A stretch of 64,000 nucleotides of DNA. Origin: Psilocybe azurescens (Eukaryota; Basidiomycota; Agaricomycetes; Agaricales; Agrocybaceae). The stretch spans positions 744,001-808,000 of the forward strand of contig JAJIRX010000622.1 of assembly GCA_023853785.1 (NCBI GenBank), given 5' to 3'. Each line of letters begins with the position of its first letter. The stretch's first letter is position 1. Under the pieces are notes generated by a model. The model was not told the DNA's origin and made no database searches. It saw nothing but the letters and a program-made list of their open reading frames with translations. This document shows positions 30,787 through 35,568 of this stretch, piece by piece. A program made the position numbers and the translations under genes.

Positions 30787-31678
30787 TCAAGCAGCGTGAA
30801 TCTCCTCAACATGTTTCTTGTCACCCGCTGCCTGGAGGATCTGCAAGAAAGGTACGGATGAGAAGACAATCAGAAAGATAGCCGAAGCTGTAACCTACCG
30901 CAAGGGCTTTGTTGACGTATTGCTTCTCGGCCTCCTCTTTTGAGACACTATGCACAGAGTGCCATGCATCCCTGAGTTCTCAAAATGTCAGATTGTGGGT
31001 GGAGAAACGACACGATTACAAGACTGACCATTTGGCCCTGCCCGCAAAATCAGCAGCAGCAGGACGGTGAGCATTGTTATCTCCAACTGTGGCTGTTAAC
31101 ATGTGAGAATGAATGACCAGTCAGATTATCATGGGTTTGGGCCTGTACCTTGCATGTAGTACTTATAGAACTTATGCGACGGAAAGAAATAGAAGAAATC
31201 AGTGTGTTTGAAATGGAAATTCTTAAACTGTATAAAAACGCACGAAAAGCTGATCAGCCTGACTGATCTGCACCGAACCATGCTTCGGCAGAGTACTGAC
31301 GATGGATACGGCTTTGTGGAACTTTGTTGCAACGCCTTTGCCTCGCTTGTGGAGATTTGTCTTCCTATCGAGTCTATTTTGCAACTTTTCAACGAGTTCT
31401 CGGGTTTTGAGTTCGGCGATAAGCTCAGAGCGGATGTCGTAGTCCATGATGAGGTCGCGTGCAGTGAGCTCGTCGAAGTAGTCACGTTCAGCAAGCTCGT
31501 CGACGTAGTTGCGGGCGTCGTACGACTCGTATTCGTTGTAGTCCTATTTAGTCGGCGAGGTGAATAATACCGAGAATGATTTCTCAATGAATGCAACATC
31601 ACTCACAACCTGGGCTTGCACCAACAGCGAAAGACCAGCGAAAAGCGAAAAGTAAGGAAGGAGTGTGGTGACTTTCAT
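30787..31678 (-). CDS. Secreted acyl-CoA-binding protein with pro-region
   Basis: The start at 31678 gives MKVTTLLPYFSLFAGLSLLV followed by QAQ, a clear signal peptide in its own exon (31678-31607). The next exon (from 31543) encodes a charged pro-region with repeated R/D-E-L motifs (DELTARDL, ELIAELKTREL) ending in HKRGKG, a Lys-Arg pair suited to Kex2 processing. Then comes an acyl-CoA-binding domain over four exons: FHKAVSIVSTLPKHG, FYKYYMQATVGDNNAHRP, AGRAKWDAWHSVHSVSKEEA and QYVNKALAILQAAG. The conserved Tyr/Lys ligand residues of ACBP (YKYY, AKWDAW) are present. ACBPs normally bind long-chain acyl-CoA in the cytosol without a signal peptide. All junctions keep phase; the stop is at 30787. 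A TATAAAAG box lies about 75 bp upstream. Confidence 0.85.
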
Positions 31679-33152: not shown

Positions 33153-35568
33153 ATGCGCAAGAGTACCACAAGAAATGTACTTCCATTGGGGTTGATATGC
33201 CTTTGTTTTGAGGCCATTCTGCTTTTCTCTGGTTCCGGAGTGAGGGCTAGAGCGCAGCAGAAATGCCATTTGCAGCCTCGCAATCAAGCAGCTCTCCAGC
33301 CACCTACGAACACGGGTTTTGGTGGAGGAACGGCGAACAGTTCTGCACCAATAACACGAACATCAGCAGATCCAACTGCGGGTCAAGCAACCTCAACATC
33401 GCTTCCATCACCGACAGCTTTCAACTACGGCACGGATAAAATTCGTGGAGTCAATCTGTACGATTTATTTCTTTGCAATATTGCCCTGCTTACTGACTGG
33501 ACACCATACACGACAGCGGAGGATGGTTGGTATTGGAGGTAAATTTATTGATGCCGCATTGCAACATGTCACTGACGTCACTTTTCTTGCCAGCCCTGGA
33601 TAACACCGAGTGTCTTCGAAAGTACAGGAAACGACAACATCATCGACGAATTCACTCTGGGCCAACTATTGGACCAACAAACCGCGGAGACCCTCCTGAA
33701 AAATCATTGGGAAACTGTAAGTTCTCGTCTCCTGAACTTGTTTACGGAACTTACTCCGAATCAGTGGATAACGGAAGACGACTTTGCCCAAATACAAGCA
33801 GCAGGTCTCAATCATGTTCGGTATGTAACATACGAGATCTTCTCTACTACCGTAACTTATTAAATTCGCCCAGAATTCCCATAGGGTATTGGTCCATCCC
33901 CCTGACCGGATCCGATACATCCGCCTCCACCTCCACAGCACCTTACATCTCAGGAGCATGGACCTACTTCCTACAAGCACTCTCCTGGGCACAGAAATAC
34001 AACATCAAAGTGATCGCTGATCTTCACGGAGCTCCAGGGTCGCAAAATGGGTTCGACAACTCAGGGCAACGGACCAACAACCCTGTGTGGGCCACTAACC
34101 CTGATAACGTCACGCGAACGGTCGACACGCTCACGTTCATGGCAAAAGAAGTGGGGGATCAGATTAGCGTCATGGAGCTGCTCAATGAGGCTGCGGGATT
34201 CCGAGACTCTAATTGGGCGTCTGTGGTGAGGAATTTCTGGACGACTGCTTATGGTGCGGTAAGAGCTGTGGCAGGCGACGATATGCAAATTATGATCGGC
34301 GATGCATTTTTGGGTGTCGAGGTTGGTTCACTCTCGTCTTCAATAACATACTGCTGAAACTTTTTTATAAACACCCAGAGTTGGACGAACTTCTTGACTC
34401 CACCGCAAGGACATGGAGTTTTAATGGACTTCGTAAATTCCACAACAACGAATTGTCTTCATATACTAACCACCCTCTCAGCACGAATACCAGGTCTTCA
34501 GTGACTTAGAACTCAACAGGACATTTGATGAGCATGTTAGCGTACGTCTTCAGTTCTCTATAATGTCCTTATGTTCGCCGACCCTCTCTCAATCTTTACA
34601 CAACTCCAGTGGGCATGCACCAACATACTACCACCATTGGCTTCCTACGCTTCCAGCAACCTGTGGACAGTCTCGGGAGAATGGTCGAACGCGGTAACAG
34701 ACTGCGCGAAATGGCTCAATGGACGTGGCGTCGGTGCTCGCTGGGATGGGACCTGGTTCCCTGGCCCTGGGACGCAGGTGCACGGGAGTTGTGCAGACTT
34801 CACTGGGAATTACACCACATGGACTCAAGATTACATTGATTTCTTGAGAAAGTGGGTGTTTAAATTGGAGCATTGGAATGCGCCGTCTTGTCCTGAGTGC
34901 TGATGATATCCTTGTGTTAACTTTTTTGTAATCATTTAGGTATTGGGAAGTGCAGGTGGAAGTCGGAGAAGCAGTGCAAGGTTGGGTGTTCTGGACATGG
35001 AAGGTGAGTCGAGGTATTTTTGCGTCATTTTTCACCCAATCTATTCGAGGCTGGTGTTATTTGTCTATTATTGCTCGGTTCCATATTGCTGGATAAGAGT
35101 CGTGGTCAGGTCGTAGAACGTACGGCTGTTCTGCCTACATGGACAGCCCACATTCCATCGACTGTGGGCACCAAAATAACATCATCTACATCTTCTCGTA
35201 GAAAATCCGAGATTCATCGTAGTCCTTACCTCTTTCCATGAGAACTTATGGGATCTTCTTCCCTGATTTATAGACCACCTCACTATCATGTGTTGTGTGT
35301 TTATTGTGATGCTTCTCTTCTCCCTTCTGGAATATACACCCGCACTTATTTCTCATACTCTGCACACAACCCCTATGTGATTGCGTGCCATCACATGTCC
35401 CACCTGTTTGGATTTCTGATCAGGATTTAAACTCACACAAACTTATTCTTTTCTATTTTCTCTCCTCAGGCTGAGAATGCGGATGAATGGAGTTACCAGA
35501 GGGGACTGCAAGGCGGATGGATCCCTCAGGATCCTACGGATCGCAAGTTTCCGGGGATTTGTTCGTAG
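33153..35568 (+). CDS. EXG1: GH5 exo-1,3-beta-glucanase (EXG1-like)
   Basis: The N-terminus has a hydrophobic segment ([18 protein letters not shown]) serving as signal peptide or anchor, then a Ser/Thr/Pro linker. The catalytic domain is spread over about ten exons and in frame throughout: [77 protein letters not shown] (acid/base Glu), [23 protein letters not shown] (nucleophile Glu), [18 protein letters not shown] and a C-terminal [16 protein letters not shown]. These are GH5 subfamily 9 signatures. The enzyme trims beta-1,3-glucan at the cell wall. The last intron (35004-35469) is 466 bp, about eight times the usual length here. Stop at 35566-35568. Confidence 0.93.

Follow-up and report, generated by a model that had tools for sequence, protein, structure and literature searches.

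How could an acyl-CoA-binding protein (ACBP) come to be exported by the ordinary secretory route, and what would it do once outside the cell? A 2023 review describes ACBP as leaderless across evolution and the conventional route as closed to it (PMC10497816). Acb1 and AcbA are reported to lack a signal peptide and to leave the cell by an autophagy/GRASP-type exit (PMC10497816, PMC11624172), and VdAcb1 failed in a yeast signal trap, its export being GRASP-dependent (PMC11624172). We analyzed a 64,000-nucleotide stretch of the Psilocybe azurescens genome (the window), in which an ACBP gene starts with a predicted secretory leader. From its sequence, we consider it probable that this leader-ACBP gene encodes a conventionally secreted, Kex2-cut precursor that would release a free 103-residue ACBP; this protein would bind acyl-CoA weakly and serve outside the cell as a signal or as a binder of another ligand.

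Gene structure and predicted secretory leader

We determined the structure of the fusion gene by splice modeling and rechecked all positions. The gene lies on the minus strand at 31678-30787 of the window, exactly from start codon to stop codon, and its six exons join in frame to encode 194 residues (22.2 kDa). All five introns are of the GT..AG type and are 56-73 bp long. The predicted splicing is that of the public model for CVT25_006422, annotated in Psilocybe cyanescens as a hypothetical protein; the two products are 100% identical. The features are as follows, in window coordinates.

31607..31678, minus strand: exon 1, residues 1-24 (splice model; identity to CVT25_006422; differences from the paralogue exon 7/1/15 by codon position)
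31613..31678, minus strand: predicted signal peptide, residues 1-22, within exon 1 (weight-matrix score 10.2, cleavage between VQA and QV)
31544..31606, minus strand: intron 1, phase 0, 63 bp, GTGAGT...TAG (position and phase as in the first intron of the leader paralogue)
31244..31543, minus strand: exon 2, residues 25-124, the remaining pro-region and the start of the ACBP domain in one open frame (splice model)
31343..31543, minus strand: acidic pro-region, residues 25-91 here, with 23-24 in exon 1 (homologous to the pro-regions of CVT25_001262 and JR316_0008542)
31445..31447, minus strand: Met57, the one in-frame ATG downstream of exon 1 and ahead of Met130 (residue scan)
31343..31348, minus strand: Lys90-Arg91, predicted Kex2-type site, the sole KR of the protein
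30790..31342, minus strand: predicted mature ACBP, residues 92-194, 103 residues, 11.3 kDa, pI 9.2, exons 2-6 (Pfam PF00887)
31149..31170, minus strand: exon 3 (splice model; intron positions as in cytosolic Acb1)
31153..31155, minus strand: codon for Met130, the residue aligned with Lys32 in human/bovine ACBP (gapless alignments, chains 2fj9 and 1aca)
31029..31092, minus strand: exon 4 (splice model; comparison with cytosolic Acb1)
30899..30971, minus strand: exon 5 (splice model; comparison with cytosolic Acb1)
30787..30840, minus strand: exon 6, including the stop codon at 30787-30789 (splice model; comparison with cytosolic Acb1)

Exon 2 alone carries, with no stop, both the pro-region (residue 25 onward) and the N-terminal 33 residues of the mature protein. 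Artefactual joining of two genes was ruled out by this open exon and by the identical public model. Methionine occurs in frame only at residues 1, 57, and 130, with none from 58 to 129. The preliminary description had named a transcript starting below exon 1, with the ACBP domain alone, as the case against a secreted protein; such a bare-ACBP transcript is impossible from any in-frame ATG of these exons. A start at Met57 may instead give a leaderless pro-ACBP that retains half of the pro-region.

We scored the signal peptide with a von Heijne-type weight matrix, using as controls 152 ATG ORFs of the window and 5000 shuffles. The score at the predicted cleavage site was reached by none of the 152 control ORFs and by 3 of the 5000 shuffles of the protein's own N-terminus. 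With the same matrix, the two leader relatives described below scored 5.6 and 6.3, and the genome's cytosolic Acb1 scored -3.1. After residue 22, mean hydropathy (19-residue window) is at most 0.47 throughout the fusion protein. The first 50 residues, comprising the signal peptide and the early pro-region, have low confidence in the AlphaFold model, with block means of pLDDT of 44-63, and we base no conclusion on their packing.

The pro-region (residues 23-91) has a predicted pI of 4.7, is marked by ARD/ERD-DEL half-repeats, and ends in Lys-Arg. Compared with the leaders of both Cys-peptide proteins described below, it has one extra 12-residue ARD/DEL unit (window 31487-31522, minus strand, residues 32-43). 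Three dibasics are found in the precursor (RK84, KR90, and KK185), with one KR and one core. KEX2 sites of fungal secreted precursors are given as KR, RR, or KK in one study; in keeping with this, P. pastoris processed precursors from C. cinerea, and Coprinopsis fruiting was impaired when kex2b or kex2c was lost (PMC9769878). In the genome analyzed here, proprotein-convertase P-domain matches occur at four places on two contigs.

The preliminary description of a signal peptide, a charged pro-region, and a Lys-Arg ahead of a complete ACBP domain holds up: all lie within one gene, the signal peptide by prediction, based on the Pfam match, the matrix score, and the identical public model. Conventional secretion with Kex2-type release, which it had also put forward, is what the leader would predict, in agreement with the P-domain matches.

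We also surveyed the surroundings of the gene by a Pfam scan of 20 window ORFs (18 of the 62 listed with at least 130 residues, plus two shorter ones beside the fusion gene). Eight of them matched a family at E <= 0.01, and five scored above the family cut-off (RNase HII, SART-1, zinc dehydrogenase, GH5 cellulase, and Nup159/214 propeller); there was no sign of a lipid- or peptide-signaling gene cluster among these 20 ORFs. The GH5 cellulase-like open frame (33497-34354, plus strand) is just above the Pfam cut-off and is divergent from the ACBP gene. A tRNA scan of the window found none.

Shared leader and probable origin of the fusion gene

A search of the organism's own genome (70.4 Mb, 937 contigs) with the leader gave five matches at E <= 10: two exons of the fusion gene, two of a paralogue (contig C603), and one weaker place, C529:684909 (37%, E 4.7e-4). 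The C603 paralogue matched at 59% over residues 38-86 (E 3.6e-13) and at 67% in exon 1 (E 0.035). It has an equal 24-codon first exon, an equal phase-0 intron after codon 24, and a homologous pro-region. Its mature part is a 4-Cys peptide unrelated to ACBP, and its product equals CVT25_001262 of P. cyanescens. As a second protein identical to a P. cyanescens entry, it places the genome in that species or very close to it. A P. cubensis relative, JR316_0008542, has a homologous signal peptide and pro-region, followed by a similar Cys-rich end with 5 Cys. That the leader is common to a second gene is new beyond the preliminary description; this recurrence, and the concentration of differences at third codon positions, speak against a leader that merely looks like one by chance.

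Both relatives resemble the fusion in their predicted signal peptide and homologous pro-region, and CVT25_001262 also shares the leader intron, but their mature parts are Cys-rich peptides of 51 and 65 residues if RR-cut. The dibasic conserved in the relatives is this RR, which aligns to RK in the fusion, with KK and RK as their second sites; the KR of the fusion is therefore not conserved. Leader identities are 51/82 between the fusion and CVT25_001262, 54/82 between the fusion and JR316_0008542, and 67/90 between those two. The ACBP leader is thus no nearer to CVT25_001262 than to its P. cubensis relative, a hint that the copies of the leader split before P. cyanescens and P. cubensis diverged.

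The paralogue CVT25_001262 (C603:472613-473016) is labelled HIT-type domain-containing in one source; its sole Pfam match is zf-Di19, below the cut-off, and it shares a KYKCPYC...DCSKFCKAK end with JR316_0008542. The weaker place (C529:684909-685124), about 90 kb from the fusion gene on the same contig, belongs to a protein of larger size whose ARD/ERD half-repeats resemble those of the fusion; they come after a weak signal-peptide-like start (score 2.5) and are followed by stretches rich in Thr/Ser, Lys, and His. Pro-regions with ARD repeats may form a wider class.

Three ACBP loci are present in the genome: the fusion gene, a leaderless 104-residue Acb1, and a third (C609:65268-65405) in which an ACBP exon is followed by what appears on inspection to be ankyrin-like sequence. 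The four introns of Acb1 correspond to introns 2-5 of the fusion gene in position and phase, and their retention rules out a retrocopy origin. By inspection, Gly94 within HKRGKGVATKF is the residue that lines up with the start codon of Acb1, and cleavage at the Lys-Arg would leave 103 residues versus the 104 of cytosolic Acb1. The introns shared with each presumed parent, together with the homology of both halves, point to a joining of DNA pieces close to where the Acb1 coding sequence starts. Judging from the sequence, the gene most likely arose when the leader part of a gene for a secreted peptide was joined in this way to an Acb1 body.

The preliminary description had proposed looking for the same fusion elsewhere. 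Our protein searches, which reach proteins sharing exact words, yielded 189 candidates in one search and 36 in another, among which the P. cyanescens entry itself was the only one with the leader. No P. cubensis fusion was found in these same searches, and they gave no support to the fusion as a widespread fungal class. Two rows with long N-termini, P0004 and P0006, were ruled out as further leaders by their hydropathy (0.56 and 0.63, versus 1.96), and P0010, with a hydrophobic N-terminus (1.9), was dropped because it is named as a fish STEAP2 protein, unrelated. In a tree of 11 ACBP rows, none of the 8 inner branches was supported.

The ACBP half

Following the Lys-Arg is a complete ACBP domain, based on a Pfam PF00887 match over residues 97-174 (E 4.3e-24, 84.9 bits versus a curated cut-off of 28.3). 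The best structural match of the AlphaFold model is the crystal structure of Moniliophthora perniciosa ACBP (3fp5; TM 0.90 on target, rmsd 1.0), and the modeled protein is predicted to adopt the four-helix ACBP fold.

We used gapless alignments to transfer residue numbers, matching residues 111-177 to 13-79 of the human-type chain 2fj9 and 111-176 to 13-78 of 1aca (offset 98). Position 32 is Met in the fusion and Lys in all 10 other ACBPs aligned. Y28, K54, and Y73, which we take to be acyl-CoA ligand residues of ACBP, are all retained (as Y126, K152, and Y171), and the ligand residue K32 is lost. In bovine ACBP (M24C background), K32A is reported to cut acyl-CoA affinity about 400-fold and to leave the fold intact (PMC10148872). 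The replacement of Lys32 by Met would thus be expected to weaken acyl-CoA binding. A role as an extracellular carrier of acyl-CoA also becomes less likely, since the lysine needed for tight acyl-CoA binding is Met.

The mature half also differs in composition from cytosolic Acb1, with a predicted pI of 9.2 versus 5.8. Histidines number 7 among 99 residues in the fusion ACBP half, 1 in cytosolic Acb1, and 0-2 in the other 10 aligned rows. The NTT N-glycosylation sequon of cytosolic Acb1 is absent from the fusion; among the eight aligned rows P0002-P0009, three lack a sequon and a fourth carries one only at another place, so its loss is uninformative alone. Relative-rate tests counted more unique changes in the secreted copy with five of six outgroups, at p < 0.05 with two of the six; the remaining outgroup, Russula, gave 10:10, with no excess.

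We tentatively suggest a separation-of-function ACBP, as one possible account of these features: with a borrowed leader, a basic and His-rich composition, and the loss of the lysine that holds CoA and lies just ahead of the ODN segment, the protein may have taken up extracellular work without acyl-CoA.

Predicted route, alternative readings and significance

The predicted features can be combined into a route. The precursor would enter the ER and lose residues 1-22, and in the Golgi a Kex2-type protease would cut after Arg91, at the sole Lys-Arg. The freed ACBP, 103 residues long, would then be exported by the ordinary route whenever it is made, and the intracellular acyl-CoA job would stay with the genome's leaderless Acb1. 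With Met at position 32 and a basic, His-rich composition, the released protein would bind acyl-CoA poorly and may act outside as a signal or as a binder of another ligand.

A receptor-type role outside the cell is plausible by analogy: extracellular ACBP is reported to act via Ste3 in yeast, and AcbA-derived SDF-2 via DhkA in Dictyostelium (PMC10497816). We obtained 43 exon-wise matches to STE3 receptors in the genome. These are the usual mating-type genes in Agaricomycetes, and we set the matches aside as receptor evidence. Many of the STE3 exons lie on contigs C777 and C800, with two identically scoring pairs across both, as if both mating-type haplotypes had been assembled.

Among the alternatives, a cationic defense or antimicrobial protein strikes us as unlikely. 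Here, the acidic pro-region would shield a basic mature part, and the helix bundle would bind microbial lipids or membranes. All three proteins with the leader do pair an acidic pro-region with a basic mature part (pI 4.7/9.2 in the fusion, 4.4/9.5 and 4.6/8.9 in the relatives if RR-cut), and copsin of C. cinerea is a KEX2-cleaved antimicrobial peptide (PMC9769878). However, the mature half of the fusion has no Cys, as is true of the whole 194-residue precursor, and a net charge that is modest (+3). Antimicrobial activity is not known for any ACBP of this kind.

Also unlikely is residence in the endomembrane or vacuole lumen, in which the ACBP would enter the ER, stay in the ER, Golgi, or vacuole, and handle lumenal acyl-CoA. 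A signal peptide predicts ER entry only, and pro-regions can sort proteins to the vacuole. Yet the C-terminus is IHAA, with no HDEL-type signal, and the change of Lys32 to Met speaks against any acyl-CoA job.

Quite improbable is a functionless chance fusion, which would be not expressed or not yet under selection, its open frame intact through recency. The record of one species only in the database searched would fit such a fusion, and the loss of the key Lys could be drift. Against it stand the six intact exons with GT-AG introns and the distribution of substitutions by codon position, which we counted because dS is undefined for the signal-peptide exon and for the whole leader. Differences between the two leaders are 28/8/44 by codon position, with a third-position share of 44/80 (one-sided binomial p 5.5e-5 versus one third). 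The signal-peptide exon pair gives 7/1/15 (third position 15/23, p 0.0017), and the pro-region pair alone gives 19/10/27 (p 0.015), with dN 0.27 and dS 1.75 (NG86). Secreted versus cytosolic ACBP gives 27/16/40 (third position 40/83, p 0.0035). For the ACBP half, dN is 0.227 versus dS 1.166 (NG86), or 0.296 versus 0.542 by YN00, which we report for this half only. Such a third-position excess says that there is coding constraint on the pair of copies, not on the fusion copy alone, and in the leader some of it may reflect constraint on the paralogue or predate the fusion.

Very unlikely is an SDF-2/ODN-like precursor, a secreted ACBP trimmed by a trypsin-like protease to a short signaling peptide as known for AcbA/TagC and mammalian DBI (PMC3901093, PMC10497816): secretion is predicted here too and single Lys/Arg sites for such a protease remain, but the mammalian ODN segment is residues 33-50 of ACBP (PMC10497816), and in the fusion Met130 stands just before the equivalent segment, position 50 is Ala, and the only dibasic of the mature part is the KK near the C-terminus. 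A trypsin-like cut ahead of this segment is not expected, because Met130 replaces Lys32. The comparison with SDF-2 made in the preliminary description is weakened by the same lost lysine.

The conventionally secreted, Kex2-released ACBP that we favor can be placed among known systems. It shares with fungal Acb1 and Dictyostelium AcbA the domain and the fold, with the genome's own Acb1 its introns, and with Acb1 and AcbA a place outside the cell, predicted in its case; it differs in having a predicted signal peptide (10.2 versus -3.1 for its own Acb1), a pro-region, a KR, and Met at Lys32. Arabidopsis AtACBP3, a plant class III protein listed as apoplastic, 39.3 kDa, and possessing a signal peptide and a transmembrane domain (PMC8146436), has the same combination of ACBP domain and signal peptide that is predicted in the fusion. 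In contrast to AtACBP3, the fusion protein is 22.2 kDa with no predicted transmembrane segment, and has a Kex2-type pro-region and a predicted free 11.3-kDa mature domain. The KEX2-processed repeat proteins (KEPs) and copsin of Agaricomycetes likewise combine a signal peptide with dibasic-site processing of a secreted precursor (PMC9769878), whereas the fusion has one mature domain after one KR and no repeated cores between dibasics.

Having a leader is no novelty for an ACBP, since plants have signal-peptide ACBPs (PMC8146436). In the literature that we covered, mostly outside subscription journals, we found neither a fungal ACBP with a signal peptide nor a small fungal ACBP carrying a Kex2-type leader in common with another peptide gene. 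In this mushroom genome, one predicted secretory leader, intron included, is joined to unrelated mature domains. If the predicted secretion is confirmed, an ACBP outside the cell would have been of enough use for its export to become fixed in the gene by evolution, and the fusion would be a natural experiment on whether ACBP needs acyl-CoA binding for its extracellular role.
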